From NCBI RefSeq assembly GCF_022406875.1, contig NZ_CP023018.1:841575-905574 (forward strand): a stretch of 64,000 nt of DNA, in the 5' to 3' direction. Positions within the stretch are counted from its first letter, which is position 1; the number at the start of each line of letters is the position of its first letter. Below the pieces are notes generated by a model. The model searched no databases and was not told where the DNA came from. It saw only the letters and a list, made by a program, of their open reading frames with translations. The translations under genes were made by a program, and so were the position numbers. The DNA is from Ectothiorhodosinus mongolicus (GTDB lineage: Bacteria > Pseudomonadota > Gammaproteobacteria > Ectothiorhodospirales > Ectothiorhodospiraceae). Below, piece after piece: positions 50,938 through 60,421 of this stretch.

Positions 50938-53325
50938 TCAGTGACCCTGAATCTGCTCGGCTAGACGCCGATACTGCAGGCTGTAGAACATCTGCAGATA
51001 GCGGCGGGTTTCCGAGCGCTCAAGATCAGTGACGTATTTCCAAAAACCGTAAATACGTGACAAAGTCATCATCCGCTCAGCATAACGATCCCAGGTATAA
51101 CGATCTGCCACCCGCTGCATACCGGCATCAGAAATCTGCTGCCAATAGTCGGGCTCATCCGCGCAGCGCGTGAAGAACTCACTGATTAACTCAGCGGCCT
51201 GCTCGCCATGATTGGGGTCGATATGAAAGCCCGAATGGCCATGTTCAATGATTTCTAGTGGTCCGCCATATTGTGTAGCAAAGGTCGGTAAGCCAGAGAC
51301 CATGGACTCAATCACCGTCAACCCAAAGGCCTCAAACAGCGCTGGCTGCACGAAAATGCCGCGACGATCGGCGATAAACCGATAAAGCTCCCCGGACAGC
51401 GTCTTGTCCAAACGTACGCCCAACCAGCGAACCTGTTCATCCAAGCCATGCTCATCAAAAAGAGCGTGCATTCGAGCGATCTGCTCTCGCTCTTCACGAT
51501 CATCGGATTGACTGCTATCCACATGGCCGGCAATCAGCACCAAATTGGCCTGTTCGCGAAGCCTTGGGTTCTGTGCATACCAAGTCAGCAGCCCAGTGAT
51601 GTTCTTGATGTGATCCAAGCGCGCCATGGAAAACACCACTGGCTTTTCTGGATCTGCCAACACGCCTCGCGCATCTTCAGAGGGCCCGCCGAACAGCATT
51701 TCCTCAAGTTCAGTGTGCAGCCCACTAAGGCGCCGCTCGGAATTGGTGTAGGCATAGTAGACCTCGGCATCAGCACCCGGCGAGACAATGTTAAAGCGCG
51801 GATCGAACACATCCACGCCATTGACCACCCGATATAAATCCGGCAGCGTGAATTGGCCGTAGCTTTCGTACTGGCCGATGCTGTAATCCGTACCGGCGAT
51901 CTCCTGAAAGGTGCTGGTGATAATAAAATCTGCCGCATTCATGGCAATCAAATCCGCCGTAAACTGACAAGAAAAATGGTACTGCGGCTCATTGTCCTGC
52001 CAGTACAAATCTGAATAGAGATACTTGGTCTTCTCTAGCGCATGGGCGATATTACACTGAGTCACATGAAGGCGATTGGCCAGCAGCGTGGCTACCAAAT
52101 TACCGTCGGAATAGTTACCCACAATCAGATCCGGACGACCACCCAGTTCGGCCAATACCCGCGTCTCGGCATCGTCGGCAAAGCGTTCCAAATAGGGCCA
52201 AATCTCAAAACGGGAGATCCAACTGGGCAGGATTTCGCCATCGCTGCTGCGAAATGGTACGCGCAGAATGCGGGCGTTGCGCGTACCGCGAATGGGTTCC
52301 TCGGCCTGATCACAGGTCGTGCCCTGAGCATCGGGCAACAGGCGTGTTACCACCAGAATATTGGGGTGGATATCTAAGCCTTGTTCCACCAGACGCTGGC
52401 GCATCTCACGCTCCAAAGCCCGGACCTGATCCAAGATATAGACCACTTGACCACCGGTATCGGGCCGCCCCAAAACATTATCCTGCCCAAAAAAGCCATG
52501 TGGCGAGAGAATCAACAGACTGAAGATCATGGGGATACGCGCGAGGAATCGCTCCAAAGTATCGGGCGAGGGCGCCTCTAACAGTTCGGAAAGCAGCTGC
52601 AGAGTATCGATGGCGCGCGACGCATCACCACCCCAGCCGACCTCAAAACCAAGATCTTGCAAACGATGTGCGTGCGCCTTCCAAGGAGTCTCAGCGGGAG
52701 ACTTGCGTAAGACCCGAATGGCCTCGCGGATTGCTTTGCGCAGACTATCCACATCGGCAATACGATCATTGAGCATCAACTGCTCGCCCTGACAGCGGTG
52801 TTCTCTTAAAAACCGCAGCAACTGTGTCAGACCGCGACCTTGCTGATCGAATAGTTCGCTGGACAGCTTGCGGTTAAGAAAGGAAACCCCCTGACCAATG
52901 GAGCGCGACTCTCGCATACGCGGCACATTGCGGTTAAATGCTCCGATATCAAATACCAGAGGATGTTGCTCAGCCAATGCCGGAATCACCAAGCGCTCTT
53001 TGAATGCCAGAAAATGTGAAACATCCATAGGTTCAAGCGTCAGGTCATCGGCATGCAAGCTCAGATAATAGGTACGGCCAACTCGGGGGCGCAGCGCTAA
53101 GGCTACGACCGGCCAAGCGATAGCCAGCTCCTGGATATCTTCCATCAAGCGCGCCAGCGGACTGTCTTCCTCATCCTCCATGTCGCGCTCAGCAAGCATG
53201 GCTAGGTAATGGTCTTTGACATCCGAGCGCAACAGAAAAGGTCGGCCCAAAGACTGATATCGGCGCAACAGCAGGTAAACCAGTTCTCGATGATCGCTGA
53301 GAGCCTGACGTAACTCCTTCAGCAT
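50938..53325 (-). CDS. Sucrose synthase
   Basis: Reversible glycosyltransferase (sucrose + NDP to NDP-glucose + fructose), a GT4 enzyme with the plant-like four-domain build. The 795 residues have the N-terminal regulatory domains (about 1-265), then the GT-B core with [59 protein letters not shown] and [21 protein letters not shown]. The length matches other bacterial enzymes. At the nucleotide-discriminating loop before GELYR it reads RLDKTLS (about 638-644). This lacks the plant Gln/Asn pair and matches ADP-preferring bacterial enzymes. The gene is divergent from the carbamoyl/amide operon; fructokinase is 6 kb away. Confidence 0.93.
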
Positions 53326-53475
53326 GGCGTTCTCCCGTTTCCCACAACGAAGGGTGAATTTGAGCACTTCGGGGATAGGTGGTAGGGTAACAAAAGATCC
53401 TCAACCCATGCGATGCACTCCTGCCTGGCAGCTCTGCCTGTCGTTTCGATTAGGCAGCCAAAAGGCTGAATATTG

Positions 53476-54738
53476 ATGACCGACAAACCCGTTTCGATCA
53501 ATATCGACCGACTCAGGCGTGATGTTGAAGCGCTGGCGGCTATAGGCCGCGGCCCAGATCAGGGCATCTACCGCATGGCCTTTAGTGAAGGCGATCTGGC
53601 TGGTCGTCGCTGGCTGCAAAGCCAGATTGAGGCCGCTCACCTCGATTATTTCGAAGATGGCGCTGCCAATCAACACGGTCGCTTGGCTTGGGATGGGCAA
53701 TCGCCCAGCATCATGATCGGCTCGCACCTTGATACGGTTCCTGGCGGCGGACCCTTGGATGGCGCCCTTGGCGTGCTGGTGGGCTTGGAGATTCTGCGCA
53801 GTATTCAAGAATCCGAAACACCACTGCGCCATCCCATGGAAGTGGTCAATTTTACAGATGAAGAAGGTCGCTTTGGCGGCTTATTTGGTTCTCAGGCGAT
53901 GGCCGGCCAGCTCACTCCGGCGATGATCCATGAGGCCCGGGATCTTGAGGGGGTTTCTCTGACCGAGGCAATGGCAGCTTGGGGTATGGATGCCAATGCC
54001 GCGTTATTTGCTCGTCGGCCACGCGATGCCATCAAAGCTTATTTAGAGCTACATATTGAACAGGGCCCAGTGTTGGATCGCGGTGATATCAGCATCGGCG
54101 TGGTGGAAGCCATCACCGGACTATTCAAGTGGGAAGTGACCCTAAAGGGGCAAACCAACCATGCGGGCACCACGCCCATGCACATGCGTCAAGACAGTTT
54201 TCAGGGACTGGCTGAGTTCGCTTTTGCCATTGACCGCATTCTAGAAGAACATGGCAGCCCGCATAGCCGCGCGACCATTGGTCGTGTTGAGCTCTCCCCG
54301 GGAGCTGCCAATACCGTTCCGGGCAGCACGGCTTTCTCACTGGATGTGCGCGACACCGATGCCGATGTGCTCTCCAACCTCAGCGATGCGTTCCGGCGAA
54401 CGCTATCAGCACTGGCCAGACGTCGGCAACTGATGTTCGAGTTTGAGGTGCTCTCAGAGATTACACCCCAGCGATGTGACGCTGGCTTGGTGCAGCTGTT
54501 GAGCGATAAGGCCCGCGCCTTGGATCTTAAGCATATGTGCCTGCCCAGTGGTGCTGCTCATGATGCACAAATCATGGCCAGCATGACGCGCACCGGCATG
54601 GTGTTCGTGCCCAGTATTGAGGGTCGCAGTCATTCCGCAGCCGAGTGGACCAATTGGGAAGATATTGAGCGAGGGGCCAATGTGCTGCTGCAAGCCTCCC
54701 TCTCATTGGCAGTGGGTACAGGAGAAACTTTACGATGA
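53476..54738 (+). CDS. M20-family N-carbamoyl-amino-acid hydrolase/allantoate amidohydrolase-like protein
   Basis: Zinc/manganese hydrolase of the hydantoinase/carbamoylase type, which cleaves ureido groups to an amine, CO2 and ammonia. The 420-residue protein keeps the full metal set: His84 in IGSHLDTV, Asp95 in GGPLDGALG, Glu129-Glu130 in NFTDEEGRFGG, His193 in ELHIEQGPVL and His in SGAAHDAQ. The dimerisation lid has KGQTNHAGTTPM. It is first in the plus-strand operon, overlapping the next gene by 4 bases. The ATG at 53476 is used, although no strong ribosome site is visible. In this operon it could remove a carbamoyl group from the product of the carbamoyltransferase encoded two genes downstream. 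Confidence 0.88.
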   Translation: MTDKPVSINIDRLRRDVEALAAIGRGPDQGIYRMAFSEGDLAGRRWLQSQIEAAHLDYFEDGAANQHGRLAWDGQSPSIMIGSHLDTVPGGGPLDGALGVLVGLEILRSIQESETPLRHPMEVVNFTDEEGRFGGLFGSQAMAGQLTPAMIHEARDLEGVSLTEAMAAWGMDANAALFARRPRDAIKAYLELHIEQGPVLDRGDISIGVVEAITGLFKWEVTLKGQTNHAGTTPMHMRQDSFQGLAEFAFAIDRILEEHGSPHSRATIGRVELSPGAANTVPGSTAFSLDVRDTDADVLSNLSDAFRRTLSALARRRQLMFEFEVLSEITPQRCDAGLVQLLSDKARALDLKHMCLPSGAAHDAQIMASMTRTGMVFVPSIEGRSHSAAEWTNWEDIERGANVLLQASLSLAVGTGETLR

Positions 54739-55517
54739 ATGAGTTGGATGCACAGCGCGATACCCGCTTCGATAATCTCGACCCCTTGCGCGAGCAATAT
54801 CGCGAGACCTTAATCAGTAATCGCGCCCTGAGCCGGGCTTTGGGCGCGCATCATGCGGCACTGTTATGTATTGATTTGCAGTATCTGGATGCTGCCCGAG
54901 GCTGGGGTATTTTCGCCGATGCCGAGCGTTCGGGACTGCCGGCGGAGGCTCAGGATTATTATTTTGAGCGTTTGGATAATCTGGTGCTGCCCAATGTGCG
55001 GCGGCTGCAAGATGGTTTTCGCTCGCTGGGTCTGGAGGTCATTCATACCCGCATCCAATCTATGACCCATGATGGACGCGATCGCGGACCAGGCCATAAA
55101 CGTTTGGGCCTGCATGCCGCACCCGGCTCCAAGGAGGCGGAGTTCCTAGAAATCGTCGCTCCTCAAGGCGATGAGATCATCATCAATAAAACCGCCAGTG
55201 GCGTCTTCACTTCCACCAATATTGAGTACGTTCTGCGCAATCTGGAAGTGACCGCCTTATTCATCGTTGGCGTTTACAGCAATGAATGCGTCAGCACAGC
55301 CATCCGCGACGCCTGTGATCTGGGTTTTTACACCACCTTGATCAGCGATGCCGTGGCCACCGTGACCCCCGAGTTGGAGCGGGCAACCATTTTGACCATG
55401 AAAGATCGCTATGCGCGGGTTATGACGACCGAACAGGCGTTGTTGGAAATCTCCAAAATTGAGGTCGACAGCGCAGACGCCCAAGTTTCCACCGCCCTCA
55501 TGGAAGAACCTCGATGA
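54735..55517 (+). CDS. Isochorismatase-fold cysteine amidohydrolase
   Basis: Cysteine hydrolase of the isochorismatase superfamily, which includes N-carbamoylsarcosine, biuret and nicotinamide amidases. The Asp-Lys-Cys triad is intact: Asp47 in LLCIDLQY, Lys152 in IINKTASGVF and Cys185 in VGVYSNECVSTAIRDA. The 260-residue length includes a 35-residue N-terminal extension. The substrate is unknown. The partners suggest an amide- or ureido-containing small molecule. The gene overlaps both neighbours by 4 bases, so the three are translated as a unit. Confidence 0.87.
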   Translation: MNELDAQRDTRFDNLDPLREQYRETLISNRALSRALGAHHAALLCIDLQYLDAARGWGIFADAERSGLPAEAQDYYFERLDNLVLPNVRRLQDGFRSLGLEVIHTRIQSMTHDGRDRGPGHKRLGLHAAPGSKEAEFLEIVAPQGDEIIINKTASGVFTSTNIEYVLRNLEVTALFIVGVYSNECVSTAIRDACDLGFYTTLISDAVATVTPELERATILTMKDRYARVMTTEQALLEISKIEVDSADAQVSTALMEEPR

Positions 55518-56581
55518 ACTGGGAATCCCAACTACAAAAGCCACTCAGCCCCAAAGATGGCACGGCCGGTATTGAACGACCTCGGGCGCTGGCCGAACAA
55601 ATCAGTGAGGACCCCAATCCCTTACTGACACTCTCCAATCGCCACGTGGTCTCAGCGCGGCAGTTTGATCGAGACACATTAACTCAGTTGTTTCGTTTGG
55701 CGGCTCAATATGAGAGCACTCCGGCACTGATGCATCTGCCACTGCAAGGTAAAATCCTGATCAGTGCCTTTTATGAACCCAGCACCCGCACGCGTCTGTC
55801 TTTCGAGAGTGCTTGGCACCGCCTAGGCGGTGACATCATGTCGATTACCGACCCAAAGAGCACGGGGATGGCCAAAGGCGAGTCGCTTGCCGATATCGCG
55901 GAGATGTTTAACAACTATGGCGATGTCATCGTCCTGCGTAATAACCAGAACGACTCGGTTTATGAAATGTTGGATGCCCTGCGCATTCCCATTGTGAACG
56001 CAGGCAATGGCATTGATGAGCATCCCACGCAGGCGATGGCCGACCTGTACACGATTTTTAAATGGCATCCGAACCTTTTGGATACCTCGCTAGCGGAAGC
56101 AGAGCGCATCCGCATCGGTATCATCGGCGTTCCCGGACGCATGCGCACGGTACGTAGCTTGCTCATCCTGTTATCTAAGTTCGCCTCAGCGATTTCCGAG
56201 GTGGTGATTATCAGTGATGAAGATCAGCCGTTTAGCGAGGGTCAGGAAACAGAACTGCTTGCAGCAGGGCTCTCCATTCGCGTCGCACGTAGCTTGAATA
56301 CTGAGCTACCTGCTTTGGATGTGGTGTACATCAATGCCATCGCTTGGGTGGGGGACAGCTTTGAGGCCATGGGCTCGGAACTGAGGCTTTCGCAACGTTC
56401 ACCACTAAAACCTGATGCCATCATCCTGCATCCTCTCGCTCGCGGTGAGGAACTGTCCACTGATTTAGATAACACGCCCCATAATTGGTATTTCGCCCAA
56501 GCCCGTGGTGCCGTGTTTATCCGCATGGCTTTGCTTACTTGTATTGTTCGACGCATCAGCGAAGTGATGGATACACCCTGA
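55514..56581 (+). CDS. Aspartate-carbamoyltransferase-like enzyme with altered amino-acid site
   Basis: ATCase/OTCase-family protein of 355 residues with an N-terminal extension of about 35. The carbamoyl-phosphate site is intact: Ser90-Thr-Arg-Thr93 in YEPSTRTRLSFESA, Lys121 in GMAKGESLAD, Arg142 in VLRNNQ and His170-Gln173 in EHPTQAMADLY. Arg211 matches E. coli PyrB Arg167. The 230s loop that binds aspartate in PyrB (Arg229-x-Gln231) reads INAIAWVGDS here and lacks both residues, and the Leu-Pro of HPLPR is Leu-Ala (HPLARGEE). The co-substrate is therefore probably not aspartate. No OTCase ornithine motif is present either. It is third in the operon, before the amidotransferase. Confidence 0.88.
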   Translation: MNWESQLQKPLSPKDGTAGIERPRALAEQISEDPNPLLTLSNRHVVSARQFDRDTLTQLFRLAAQYESTPALMHLPLQGKILISAFYEPSTRTRLSFESAWHRLGGDIMSITDPKSTGMAKGESLADIAEMFNNYGDVIVLRNNQNDSVYEMLDALRIPIVNAGNGIDEHPTQAMADLYTIFKWHPNLLDTSLAEAERIRIGIIGVPGRMRTVRSLLILLSKFASAISEVVIISDEDQPFSEGQETELLAAGLSIRVARSLNTELPALDVVYINAIAWVGDSFEAMGSELRLSQRSPLKPDAIILHPLARGEELSTDLDNTPHNWYFAQARGAVFIRMALLTCIVRRISEVMDTP

Positions 56582-56599
56582 AGTTTTAAGGAGTTTTTT

Positions 56600-58612
56600 A
56601 TGTGTGGTATTGCCGGCGTGATGCACGCCGACCCCCAAAAACCTGTTGATCCCAACACACTGGTGGCAATGGCCGCGATTCAGCACCACCGCGGTCCGGA
56701 TGGCTTTGGCTATGAGGTGCAGAAAGATCGTGGCGTTGGCTTTTCTCATGCCCGCCTGACCATTATCGATTTAGACGAAAATCGCGCCCGCCAGCCTTTT
56801 GTCAGTGCGGACAAACAGCTGATGCTGGCGGTCAATGGTGAGCTTTATGACTACAAACGCATTCGCGCGGATTTGGTTTCACGCGGCGCGCGCTTTCGCA
56901 CTAAGAGCGATTCGGAGATGGTCTTGCACCTCTACCCGCGCTTGGGCTTGGAAGACATGCTTCCACAGCTGCGCGGCGAGTTTGGCATTGCACTTTATGA
57001 TCGCCACCGCGATCGCTTGATGCTGATTCGCGACCGCTTTGGCGTTAAACCTTTGTACTGGACCGAGGTCAATGGCACGTTAGTCTTCGGCTCGGAATTG
57101 AAAGTGTTGTTTGCGCACCCCGAAGTACCTCGTCGCTTTGAGGCGCAGGGACTGTATCACCAACTGATGCAGACTATGGTGCCGGGTCACACCGCCTTTG
57201 ATGGTATCCATCAGGTCAAACCAGGGCATTGTCTGATCATTGAGCGCAGCCATGGGAAGCTGCAAATTCGTGATGAACGCTACTGGGACATGGATTTCCC
57301 ACTACTCGAAGAACGCGGTCAAGAACGCGACGAGGATTTCTACATCGAGGGCATTCGCGAAACGCTCATGGAGTCGGTGCAGCTGCGTCTGGAGGCCGAT
57401 GTACCTGTGGCCTGTTATCTATCCGGTGGCATTGATTCCTGTATCACGCTGGGCTTAGCAGCGGCGTCGCAGCAGTCAGCGGTCAAAGCCTTCACCATCG
57501 GCTTTGACAATGTGGACTACGATGAAACGGCAATTGCTCAGGAGATGGCCCAGAGCGTGGGCGCCGATCAAGACATCATGCGCCTCAAAGCCGAGCATCT
57601 CTATGACAATCTAGTCGAAACGCTTTGGCATGCCGAGCGCACCATCTACAACACCTTGGGCGTTGCGAAGCTGCTGATGAGCCGCCATGTCAATCAAGCC
57701 GGTTATCGGGTCGTGGTCACGGGTGAAGGCTCGGATGAGCTATTTGGCGGCTATCCCTCGTTTCGCCGCGATATGTTCCTGCATGGACTCGATACCTTAA
57801 GTCCAGCAGAGCGCGCCAGCTGGCAACAGCTGCTGTCCGAGAGTAATCAGCTGTTCTCCGGCGCCATGCTGGCGGAAAACGAATGGCGTGATCCGGCCTT
57901 GGATAAACTCGTTGGTTTTACGCCCTCCTGTTTGCAGCCATGGTTGGCTAGCGCGATACACACACCAGGGCTGATGTCGGAGTCCATGCGCGATCAAATC
58001 CATGGCTATGAGCCGGGCCGGGCGATTGCTGAAGCGCTTGATGGCGACATGATCCGCGGCCGCCATCCCTTGGATAAGGCGCAATATGTGTGGATCAAGA
58101 CCATGCTAGAGGGACAAATTCTCACTTGGGGCGGTGATCGGGTAGATATGGCCAATTCCATGGAAGCGCGGCCGCCGTTTTTGGATCATCATCTCGCTGA
58201 ACGCGCTGTACATCTGCCGCCGTCGATGCGCATCAAGGGCCGCACCGAAAAATATGTACTGCGTGAGGCCATGAAAGGCCTACTGCCCAAGGTGTTGTAC
58301 GAGCGCGAGAAGTTCGCGTTTATGGCGCCTCCAGCGCATACCGACCCCAAGAAATGGGCGGCAATGCGGGCCTTGGCCGACCAATATTTGTCTGACCAAG
58401 CGATCCAAGATGCTGGGTTATTGGATGTGAATGGTGTCAAAGCCTTATTCCAGTTACATGAAGCCGCCGACACCAGCGCTTCGACTCAAGTGCAACTCGA
58501 TGCGGTGATCAACCACATGATTGGCGTGCAGGTTCTGCACCACCAGTTCGTGGCACAAGACATCCCGGCATTGGCACGCAAGCGTGCCGCTGAGTTGGGC
58601 TGGGCGGCCTAG
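56600..58612 (+). CDS. Glutamine-dependent asparagine-synthetase-like amidotransferase
   Basis: The N-terminal Ntn glutaminase begins MCGIAGVMHA (nucleophile Cys2) with HHRGPDGFGYEV and AVNGELYDYKR. The C-terminal synthetase domain has the ATP pyrophosphatase loop LSGGIDS (275-280) and VTGEGSDELFGGYPSF (about 374-388). At 670 residues it is longer than E. coli AsnB (554) and of the AsnB/AsnO size class. Members of this fold also amidate small peptides, for example in N-acetylglutaminylglutamine amide synthesis. AAGGAG lies 7 bases before the ATG, 18 bases after the carbamoyltransferase. Its place suggests that it amidates a carboxyl of the carbamoylated amino acid; plain asparagine synthesis remains possible. 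Confidence 0.88.
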   Translation: MCGIAGVMHADPQKPVDPNTLVAMAAIQHHRGPDGFGYEVQKDRGVGFSHARLTIIDLDENRARQPFVSADKQLMLAVNGELYDYKRIRADLVSRGARFRTKSDSEMVLHLYPRLGLEDMLPQLRGEFGIALYDRHRDRLMLIRDRFGVKPLYWTEVNGTLVFGSELKVLFAHPEVPRRFEAQGLYHQLMQTMVPGHTAFDGIHQVKPGHCLIIERSHGKLQIRDERYWDMDFPLLEERGQERDEDFYIEGIRETLMESVQLRLEADVPVACYLSGGIDSCITLGLAAASQQSAVKAFTIGFDNVDYDETAIAQEMAQSVGADQDIMRLKAEHLYDNLVETLWHAERTIYNTLGVAKLLMSRHVNQAGYRVVVTGEGSDELFGGYPSFRRDMFLHGLDTLSPAERASWQQLLSESNQLFSGAMLAENEWRDPALDKLVGFTPSCLQPWLASAIHTPGLMSESMRDQIHGYEPGRAIAEALDGDMIRGRHPLDKAQYVWIKTMLEGQILTWGGDRVDMANSMEARPPFLDHHLAERAVHLPPSMRIKGRTEKYVLREAMKGLLPKVLYEREKFAFMAPPAHTDPKKWAAMRALADQYLSDQAIQDAGLLDVNGVKALFQLHEAADTSASTQVQLDAVINHMIGVQVLHHQFVAQDIPALARKRAAELGWAA

Positions 58613-58621
58613 GAACCCATC

Positions 58622-59530
58622 ATGGAATTCGTCGTTGAATATTTCTTGGAAGTCGCTTGGCAGGATCTGATCTTCGCCAGCCTGCGCATTTTGCTGGTAG
58701 TGGTAATCGCCTGGCTGATTGCCAGCTTCCTGAAATCCGGGCTGCGGCGTCTCGAGAAATCCCTGATCGAACGCGGCAAGCAACAAGGTGAGGTCCCCTC
58801 AGAAGCCAGCAAACGTGCCGAAACGTTGGTGCGCTTGCTGCGTCAGGCCATGGTCATCATGATTTGGGTGGTTTCCATTCTCGTGATACTCAATGAGTTC
58901 GGATTATCCATTGCGCCAATCATAGCCAGCGCAGGGGTGGTAGGACTGGCCGTGGGCTTTGGTGCCCAGAACCTGGTTCGCGATGTGATCAGTGGCTTTT
59001 TCCTGATTCTTGAGAATCAGGTGCGAGTGGGTGATGTGGCTGTGGTCAACGGCACCGGTGGTCTTGTAGAGTCGATTAATTTTCGCACCCTGCAGCTAAG
59101 AGATCTCGAGGGCAAGGTGCACATCTTTCCCAATGGCTCGATCAGTTCCATGACCAATCTCACCTACGGCTGGTCGGCCTACGTGTTTGACATCCCCGTC
59201 GCCTACAAAGAAAACACCGATCGCGTGGTGAAGCTGATTGAAAAAGTCGGTCAGGAACTGCGGGATGATCCCGAGTATCACACCAGCATTTTGGACGATA
59301 TTGAAATCTTCGGCGTGGATAAATTCGACGACTCGGGCGTCATCATCAAAGGTCGAATTCGCACCCTACCGATCAAACAGTGGTTTGTGGGTCGCGAATT
59401 CCTGCGCCGCATTAAGCTATGTTTTGACGACGAAGGCATCGAAATTCCCTTCCCGCATCGCACGCTTTATCTAGGGCAGGGCGAAGAGGCCAAACTGACG
59501 GCGGCCATGCTTAATCGTGAGCAAAGCTAA
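58622..59530 (+). CDS. MscS-family mechanosensitive channel
   Basis: Small-conductance channel that releases solutes on hypo-osmotic shock. The 302 residues have three N-terminal membrane helices; the pore-lining one is IIASAGVVGLAVGFGAQNLVRDVISGFF. The MscS beta domain follows with LILENQVRVGDVAVVNGTGGLVESINFRTLQLRD and HIFPNGSISSMTN, then the alpha/beta C-terminal domain. It begins 9 bases after the amidotransferase, so it is probably the last gene of the operon. It ends 3 bases from convergent fructokinase. Confidence 0.92.
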   Translation: MEFVVEYFLEVAWQDLIFASLRILLVVVIAWLIASFLKSGLRRLEKSLIERGKQQGEVPSEASKRAETLVRLLRQAMVIMIWVVSILVILNEFGLSIAPIIASAGVVGLAVGFGAQNLVRDVISGFFLILENQVRVGDVAVVNGTGGLVESINFRTLQLRDLEGKVHIFPNGSISSMTNLTYGWSAYVFDIPVAYKENTDRVVKLIEKVGQELRDDPEYHTSILDDIEIFGVDKFDDSGVIIKGRIRTLPIKQWFVGREFLRRIKLCFDDEGIEIPFPHRTLYLGQGEEAKLTAAMLNREQS

Positions 59531-59533
59531 GGA

Positions 59534-60421
59534 TTAGGACCAATCCGATTTGGCTTCGATGTAGAACAATGGATCGTCAGTAGTTGCGCCGCGCATCGCG
59601 CAGATGGCGGCGGCATAAACCGATGCGCGCTGCAGAATCAACGGCCATGGCCACGCTTCAATCAGGCCGATGAGAGTGACGGCAGTAAATGCGTCGCCAG
59701 CGCCAACCGTGTCAATGAGTTGAGGTACAGCTGGGGCCGGTGTCTCAAACACACTTCCATCGCGACTCACCACGAAAGCGCCTTGCGCCGCGCGCGTCAC
59801 GATCACTGCCTCAAGCTGACATTCATCGCGCAAGCACTGCGCCTGCTCAATCGGCGCAGACTCGGGTCGTGAGGACAAGATGGCCAACTCCTGCTCATTG
59901 AGTTTGGCCCATGTGGCTTGCTGCAAATACCCCACCACCTCATCATGTTGCCACCAAGGATCTCTGAGGTTGACGTCGAGAAAAATGCGCGGCTGGGTCT
60001 GATCACACAAATGCTGAAAATTTTGCCGTGAGACCTCTCCACGCAACGCCAAAGAGCCGTGATAGAGCAGCCCATGCTGCGGCATCTTCTCAAGAACCTG
60101 GCTGGCATCAATATGATCGTAAGCCTGATCGGCGAGGATTTTGTAGCTGGGCTCGCCGTTTTTTAGGTGCACCTCGACGCGACCCGTGGGGTGGTTTTCT
60201 GACATACCCAAGCCGGCAAGCGACATATGCCAGGTACGCATCGATGCAATCACACGTTGGCCTAAGGCATCATGACCCACGGCACCGACGAATAGGGGGT
60301 TTCGCCCCAAACCCTTAAGATTCCAGACGACATTAAAGGGCGCACCACCCAGCACCTGCTGATCGTCAAAACAATCAAACAGCACCTCACCAAACACCAA
60401 AATGTCGGGTGAATCAGGCAT
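59534..60421 (-). CDS. PfkB-family carbohydrate kinase, probable fructokinase
   Basis: Ribokinase-fold sugar kinase of 295 residues. The N-terminal signature is LGGAPFNVVWNLKGLG, and the C-terminal DTVGAGDAFTAVTLIG contains the catalytic aspartate. The FGEVLFDCFDD start and GGAPFN pattern are those of bacterial fructokinases. Sucrose synthase 6 kb away supports fructose as substrate, since fructose is a product of sucrose cleavage. It overlaps the upstream EEP gene by 8 bases and belongs to the cytochrome-c4/EEP/kinase unit on the minus strand. Confidence 0.87.
   Translation of the reverse strand: MPDSPDILVFGEVLFDCFDDQQVLGGAPFNVVWNLKGLGRNPLFVGAVGHDALGQRVIASMRTWHMSLAGLGMSENHPTGRVEVHLKNGEPSYKILADQAYDHIDASQVLEKMPQHGLLYHGSLALRGEVSRQNFQHLCDQTQPRIFLDVNLRDPWWQHDEVVGYLQQATWAKLNEQELAILSSRPESAPIEQAQCLRDECQLEAVIVTRAAQGAFVVSRDGSVFETPAPAVPQLIDTVGAGDAFTAVTLIGLIEAWPWPLILQRASVYAAAICAMRGATTDDPLFYIEAKSDWS

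Follow-up and report, generated by a model that had tools for sequence, protein, structure and literature searches.

A rare salt-protecting molecule, Nα-carbamoyl-L-glutamine 1-amide (CGA), has been known since 1991 (Galinski and Oren, cited in PMC1224877 and PMC3857566). In the openly licensed literature that we searched, we found no paper assigning genes to it. The locus considered here raises the question of whether a compact gene cluster in Ectothiorhodosinus mongolicus makes and recycles this solute, as proposed in an earlier note made from the sequence alone. The cluster lies in a 64,000-nucleotide stretch of the genome (contig NZ_CP023018.1, positions 841,575 to 905,574), referred to below as the window. 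It consists of the following features and neighbours:

50938-53367, minus strand: sucrose synthase, a divergent neighbour and second compatible-solute gene at the locus
53368-53475, no strand: divergent intergenic stretch between sucrose synthase and the putative operon, a possible promoter region
53476-54738, plus strand: M20 hydrolase of the hydantoinase/N-carbamoyl-L-amino-acid hydrolase family (open reading frame from 53473, with an ATG at 53476)
54735-55517, plus strand: isochorismatase-fold cysteine hydrolase (ISO)
55514-56581, plus strand: ATCase-like carbamoyltransferase (CT), a proposed glutamine N-alpha-carbamoyltransferase
56600-58612, plus strand: AsnB-like glutamine-dependent amidotransferase, proposed to amidate the alpha-carboxyl of carbamoylglutamine
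58622-59530, plus strand: MscS-type mechanosensitive channel, associated, a possible efflux valve on osmotic downshock
59534-60421, minus strand: PfkB-family sugar kinase, fructokinase-like

The arrangement described in the note, four tightly packed genes followed by MscS, is confirmed. M20 and ISO, and likewise ISO and CT, overlap by 4 bp each, whereas CT and AsnB are 18 bp apart and AsnB and MscS 9 bp. Profile searches support the family assignments: TIGR01879 for M20 (367 bits, cut-off 204), PF00857 for ISO (102 bits), PF02729/PF00185 for CT (139/46 bits), PF00733 (292 bits) plus GATase for AsnB, and PF00924 for MscS. Sucrose synthase is also identified (TIGR02470, 1175 bits, cut-off 810), while the best NCBIfam hit of the sugar kinase, fructokinase, stays below its cut-off (89.5 of 450 bits). 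The arrangement is not due to chance, since in 76 of 80 named loci AsnB lies on the same strand downstream of CT, directly next to it among the labelled genes in 68 and with M20 and ISO between them in 8. Three of the four exceptions are contig ends; the fourth is Thiorhodospira sibirica, in which both genes are present but unlinked.

To address the distribution of the cluster, we searched genomes of the family, the order and the class. CT is found in 38 of 38 family genomes that are at least 90% complete; the order-level search covered the same 47 genomes and added nothing. At the cut-offs used (E 1e-55, with 61% identity or more, for CT and E 1e-180 for AsnB), orthologues of the two proteins occur in the same 23 of 369 sampled class genomes, although, since the genomes are related, these are not 23 independent events. 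Four weaker CT paralogues (37-42% identical) were set aside, because none has STRTR or Lys121 intact, three of the four lack His170, and no relative of the window AsnB was found in the stretches examined. Many relatives add three genes that are not at this locus in the window and that the note could not have seen: an SSS symporter (68 of 80 named loci), an undescribed FN3-like membrane protein and a MarR regulator (41 of 80, in 32 of them upstream of the first core gene). In the window genome, the symporter and the FN3-like gene sit together elsewhere. The MarR gene, which in Ectothiorhodospira loci stands in the divergent intergenic stretch, is absent from this stretch in the window, and the MarR of the E. 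marismortui locus found no match in the window genome at E 0.001, albeit in a search without a positive control. We do not claim that the MarR of the Idiomarina-type loci belongs to the module, as in one such locus it lies about 5 kb away. Among 109 loci holding CT and AsnB, a relative of sucrose synthase is found in 20 (14 genomes), and an MscS relative within 2 kb of AsnB in 9 (7 genomes, two of them represented twice; many loci are short). In one locus, sucrose-phosphate synthase and sucrose synthase genes follow AsnB.

The note had suggested looking for this gene order in Ectothiorhodospiraceae and comparing it with solute reports, and the outcome of this comparison supports its interpretation. 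Ectothiorhodospira marismortui DSM 4180 (record FOUO, named E. mobilis in the collection and identified by the accession in PMC8877833) carries M20-ISO-CT-AsnB next to sucrose synthase. It belongs to the species reported as the source of CGA (PMC1224877; PMC3857566). Moreover, CT is its only PF02729 carbamoyltransferase besides ArgF and PyrB. The window genome also has its own pyrB and argF, and it has GatB. A separate gene of the same genome encodes an N-acetylglutaminylglutamine amide (NAGGN) amidotransferase (964 bits), so the cluster represents a distinct system.

Conserved residues are consistent with this reading. Counts by rigid patterns were too strict (e.g. 87 of 115 for the R211 motif, 52 of 83 for one M20 motif and 27 of 40 for one ISO motif), and we therefore relied on alignment columns. 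In CT, the carbamoyl-phosphate site (STRTR and the equivalents of Lys84, Arg105 and His134) is kept in 100 of 100 distinct orthologues chosen at 60% identity and over 90% coverage, and Lys121, Arg142, His170 and Arg211 are likewise present in 100 of 100. In contrast, the position of E. coli ATCase Arg229, which probably binds the aspartate side chain, is occupied by A/S/T/K and never by R, whereas PyrB of the same genome has the arginine. CT is below the cut-off of every NCBIfam model it matched, including the ATCase models (190.4 and 190.1 bits against 263 and 237). In AsnB, Cys2 and SGGxDS are present in 91 of 91 distinct relatives (55% identity, over 90% coverage). The protein scores above the generic asparagine synthase model TIGR01536 (418 of 267 bits), but below the models for asparagine synthase B (270 of 499), NAGGN amidotransferase TIGR03104 (306.8 of 570) and XrtA (375 of 817). 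In M20, H84, D86, E129, E130, H193, N279, R292 and H386 are the same in 71 of 71 distinct relatives (50% identity, over 90% coverage). M20 passes the subfamily model NF006771, named allantoate amidohydrolase (523 of 399 bits), while its best equivalog is ErtE, N-carbamyl-L-glutamate amidohydrolase (385 bits, below the 520 cut-off). In ISO, Asp47, Lys152 and Cys185, presumably the catalytic triad of the fold, are found in 29 of 29 distinct relatives (50% identity, over 90% coverage); however, its best equivalog, biuret amidohydrolase, reaches only 61 of 370 bits, so the substrate is open.

Taken together, these observations make it likely that the cluster makes and recycles CGA, although, with no enzyme assayed and no solute measured, both the acceptor (glutamine) and the salt role are inferred. 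In the scheme that we propose, CT transfers the carbamoyl group of carbamoyl phosphate to the alpha-amine of glutamine, and AsnB then activates the alpha-carboxyl with ATP and amidates it with ammonia from a second glutamine, resulting in a neutral solute. After salt stress, or after re-uptake by the symporter (unlinked in this genome), ISO might first remove the 1-amide. M20, which keeps its probable carboxylate-binding residues, might then split off the carbamoyl group, so that glutamine, ammonia and CO2 are recovered. MscS might let solute out on downshock. Compared with the note, the scheme is refined in that many relatives also carry the symporter, its small partner and a MarR gene, and in that the hydrolases are missing beside the core in some lineages; in particular, no isochorismatase-fold gene stands near the core in the Kangiella- and Idiomarina-type loci. 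The main tension is with the known distribution of the solute: a 2013 review gives CGA as found in one organism only (PMC3857566), yet we found 306 related stretches in species genomes. Either CGA was overlooked or some clusters make another amide. Raman spectra of E. marismortui showed no CGA signal; the review calls CGA a minor solute without a library spectrum. Thioalkalivibrio versutus D301 was reported with betaine as main solute and no CGA (PMC9062515), although the account that we consulted followed only m/z 118; the cluster itself was seen in strain AL 2.

Other explanations seem less likely. The same carbamoylation and amidation might act on another alpha-amino acid, such as asparagine, glutamate, alanine or a dipeptide, giving a different neutral osmolyte, with CGA in E. 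marismortui made elsewhere or being one of several products. Acceptor specificity cannot be read from the sequence, the loss of the aspartate side-chain arginine fits many side chains, and the gene family is far wider spread than reported CGA. Nonetheless, CGA formation needs a carbamoyl-transferring enzyme, CT is the only PF02729 candidate left in E. marismortui once ArgF and PyrB are set aside, and among equivalogs M20 is closest to an N-carbamoyl-glutamate hydrolase. We thus regard this alternative as unlikely, though it is the strongest of those considered.

A nitrogen-scavenging or storage system, in which the symporter takes up carbamoyl amino acids or amides, the hydrolases degrade them, and CT and AsnB serve salvage or storage without an osmotic role, appears very improbable. 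It is true that both hydrolases are found in 53 and the symporter in 68 of 80 loci, that M20 passes a model named allantoate amidohydrolase, and that both hydrolase families may often be catabolic. However, CT and AsnB would spend carbamoyl phosphate and ATP and are the constant core, whereas the hydrolase pair is missing from 27 of 80 loci (some cut by contig ends). In addition, the neighbours include sucrose genes and MscS, and many of the named isolates appear to belong to marine, halophilic or soda-lake genera. Even more doubtful is a housekeeping role, with CT as a divergent ATCase and AsnB as the asparagine synthetase of the cell. The ATCase-like score and predicted fold of CT and the generic asparagine synthase match of AsnB would fit it. 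Against it speak the ATCase cut-offs that CT fails to reach, the separate pyrB and argF, the lost Arg229 position, the presence of GatB in 6 of 6 genomes tested, and the restriction of orthologues of the pair to 23 of 369 genomes.

The cluster offers a set of candidate genes for a solute known for decades, a carbamoyltransferase with a probably new acceptor, and a marker for seeking the solute in Thioalkalivibrio, Kangiella, Idiomarina-type and spirochaete genomes. The cluster may also fill a gap, since Ectothiorhodosinus mongolicus was reported to lack betaine and ectoine synthesis genes, with CGA named among possible substitutes (PMC7824335). It is attractive to speculate further that this is an overlooked, widespread osmolyte system spread over marine and halophilic Gammaproteobacteria and spirochaetes. 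It would combine a new class of glutamine (alpha-amino acid) carbamoyltransferase, its own amidotransferase subfamily, and a symporter with a new FN3-domain membrane partner for solute retrieval, and CGA would then be a common solute. We consider this somewhat more likely than not.

Several known systems resemble parts of the cluster. EctR1 and CosR are MarR repressors of osmolyte genes (PMC7876524). To obtain an EctR for comparison, we searched for EctA; of 29 matches, the five over the cut-off were inspected (one cut at its contig end), and a MarR gene was found beside ectA in one. MarR genes in 14 loci (Kangiella, Aliikangiella, Idiomarina-type, symbiont and other loci) are 39-50% identical to this presumed EctR, and in 7 of the 14 the gene lies just upstream of the FN3-like gene. 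However, the MarR at the operon head in Ectothiorhodospira and Thioalkalivibrio is only 24-30% identical (24-28% for Ectothiorhodospira), so a salt role is not shown by it. Aspartate carbamoyltransferase (PyrB) shares with CT the predicted fold (the first-ranked Foldseek match of the CT model is an ATCase, TMq 0.73; model mean pLDDT 75), the carbamoyl-phosphate residues and R211, the likely carboxylate arginine. CT differs at the Arg229 position and in having HPLAR in place of the HPLPR of the aligned PDB ATCases. ErtE/HyuC-type N-carbamoyl-L-amino-acid hydrolases share with M20 the family, the metal ligands and the Asn/Arg pair that probably binds carboxylate, but M20 stays below the ErtE cut-off and sits with a synthetic pair. 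Finally, in the NAGGN operon (asnO-ngg, PA3459-PA3461, with MarR regulator PA3458), an AsnB-like enzyme likewise amidates a capped glutamine to a neutral osmolyte, accompanied by a MarR gene and a predicted aminopeptidase (PMC8070244). The cap there is acetyl plus a second glutamine, made by the GNAT-family enzyme Ngg, whereas here a carbamoyltransferase takes this place, and the two AsnB proteins, both present in the window genome, score as different subfamilies.

All four genes described in the earlier note are present on the + strand, with two 4-bp overlaps and gaps of 18 and 9 bp around AsnB, and our family searches agree with the names that the note had given them: an M20 carbamoylase-type hydrolase, an isochorismatase-fold hydrolase (ISO), an ATCase-like carbamoyltransferase (CT) and an AsnB-like amidotransferase. 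However, CT falls below every curated ATCase and OTCase model that it matched, while AsnB is below the asparagine synthase B, NAGGN and XrtA models although above the generic one. M20 passes a subfamily model named allantoate amidohydrolase (523 bits against a cut-off of 399), whereas its best equivalog is ErtE, an N-carbamoyl-glutamate hydrolase (385 bits against 520). The window (55.3% G+C) lies in a single-contig genome of 1,995,095 bp, of the same genus group as genomes whose contigs match named Ectothiorhodospira records. The genome is probably that of Ectothiorhodosinus mongolicus, a species reported to lack betaine and ectoine synthesis genes and for which CGA was named among possible substitutes (PMC7824335).

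The earlier note had proposed that these genes may make CGA and that their order should be sought in Ectothiorhodospiraceae and compared with reported solutes. To address this, we scanned species genomes with a 16-sequence CT alignment and found 306 related stretches, of which the best 80 were analyzed. One of these loci, L083 on NZ_FOUO01000006, comes from strain DSM 4180, there named E. mobilis, but FOUO00000000 is given as E. marismortui DSM 4180 in PMC8877833. This locus carries M20-ISO-CT-AsnB beside sucrose synthase, as does L084 of E. mobilis DSM 237. E. marismortui, though not necessarily this strain, is named as the source of CGA (PMC1224877, PMC3857566), and CT is the only one of its carbamoyltransferase family there that is free for CGA.

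Within the family, CT is found in 41 of 47 genomes and in 38 of the 38 that are at least 90% complete and little contaminated. In a class sample of 369 genomes, 26 match at E 1e-55; 23 of them have an orthologue of 61% identity or more, and three have only a weaker paralogue of 37-42%. Such weaker relatives (loci L050, L051, L052 and L053) represent a second family in which the carbamoyl-phosphate site is eroded; they are probably non-catalytic. AsnB orthologues at E 1e-180 are present in 23 of the 369 genomes, and these are the same 23, although related genomes cannot be counted as independent. Among the 80 named loci, AsnB follows CT on the same strand in 76, directly in 68 and after M20 and ISO in eight. 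Three of the exceptions are contig ends, and the fourth is Thiorhodospira sibirica (L061, L082 and L157), which has AsnB (82% identical) about 0.7 Mb from CT on one contig, with no M20 or isochorismatase-fold relative in the stretches around either gene. In genome G009, the CT gene is split over two overlapping frames (L060:5998-7091), due to either a frameshift or a sequencing error, while M20, ISO and AsnB are found at normal length nearby.

The composition of the loci varies. Of the 80, 53 have M20 and ISO, 68 a symporter, 61 its small partner (detected by BLAST and by a profile of five members, and never without the symporter) and 41 a MarR gene, which in 32 cases is upstream of the first core gene; short contigs lower all of these counts. 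In the eight loci with M20-ISO between CT and AsnB, mostly spirochaete MAGs, the arrangement differs from that of the Idiomarina-type loci, which have symporter-CT-AsnB without ISO. The names include Ectothiorhodospira, Thioalkalivibrio, Thiohalobacter, Thiohalophilus, Kangiella, Idiomarina, Pseudidiomarina and Leptospiraceae or Spirochaetaceae MAGs. Nine loci of Leptospiraceae/spirochaete MAGs (L113, L114, L120, L122, L129, L133, L135, L150 and L154; L122 is labelled only 'bacterium') carry CT of 61-64% identity, eight of the nine with the shared order symporter-CT-M20-ISO-AsnB, which might reflect a transfer between phyla.

We next examined the CT active site in 100 distinct orthologues, the window sequence included, chosen at 60% identity or more and over 90% coverage. 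STRTR, T117, K121, R142, H170, R211, N274, W278 and HPLAR are the same in all of them, and Q173 in 99. Position 275, which stands opposite the Arg of TRIQ/TRVQ-type motifs in the alignments with PDB ATCases, is A in 69, S in 26, T in 4 and K in 1. If, as seems likely, this position corresponds to E. coli Arg229, which binds the aspartate side chain, and R211 to the carboxylate-binding Arg167, the pattern suggests a carboxylate-bearing acceptor that is not aspartate, but it does not prove glutamine. The structural model (mean pLDDT 75; below 50 at residues 86-89, 111-122 and 277-285, which are parts of the active site) matches ATCases best.

In many relatives, the gene between ISO and CT encodes an SSS-family symporter; the three that we tried are below all named equivalogs. 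In the window genome the symporter (66%) is unlinked to the cluster and located, in locus L188, directly after the gene of a 160-aa partner. Members of the partner family include the following:

L188, 2950-3432, - strand: small partner protein of the window genome
L124, 7862-8398: small partner protein
L141, 7892-8407: small partner protein

No Pfam match was found for the three members tried and no NCBIfam match for the two tried. The model (pLDDT 90) shows an N-terminal helix, a beta sandwich resembling FN3 domains and a C-terminal helix, and this undescribed small membrane protein might be a new symporter subunit. The MarR genes fall into two groups. In 14 loci they are 39-50% identical to the MarR beside ectA in locus L162, and in seven of these they lie just upstream of the partner gene. 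The rest are 24-30% identical and are located at the operon head in Ectothiorhodospira and Thioalkalivibrio. EctR1, CosR and PA3458 are known to repress osmolyte operons (PMC7876524, PMC8070244). Of the 109 loci holding CT and AsnB, sucrose synthase is near in 20 (14 genomes) and MscS in nine (7 genomes), and in L116 AsnB is followed by a sucrose-phosphate synthase, a phosphatase-like gene, a sugar kinase and a sucrose synthase relative.

Taken together, these observations support the CGA assignment but, in the absence of an assay, do not prove it. Some reports do not readily fit a widespread CGA system. According to a 2013 review (PMC3857566), CGA was known from one organism only, though PMC7824335 speaks of CGA, sucrose and NAGGN together as found in other purple sulfur bacteria. 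No CGA is reported for T. versutus D301, where m/z 118 was followed (PMC9062515), and neither carbamoyltransferase nor asparagine synthase is mentioned in that text, its supplements aside. On the other hand, nitrate uptake and glutamine synthetase genes of this strain, but not its betaine genes, rose with salt, which would fit a further nitrogen-rich solute but proves nothing.

A housekeeping role of AsnB is unlikely, since GatB is present in 6 of 6 genomes tested and asparaginyl-tRNA could therefore presumably be made without AsnB. The cluster is also distinct from the NAGGN system, because the second full AsnB-like gene of the window genome, situated near 330 kb (L190:1483-3258, - strand), is a NAGGN amidotransferase (964 bits against a cut-off of 570), so that this genome may make two glutamine-amide osmolytes. 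The proposed product would be, like NAGGN, a capped glutamine amide serving as an osmolyte, but the AsnB of the cluster, unlike this second gene, falls below the NAGGN model.
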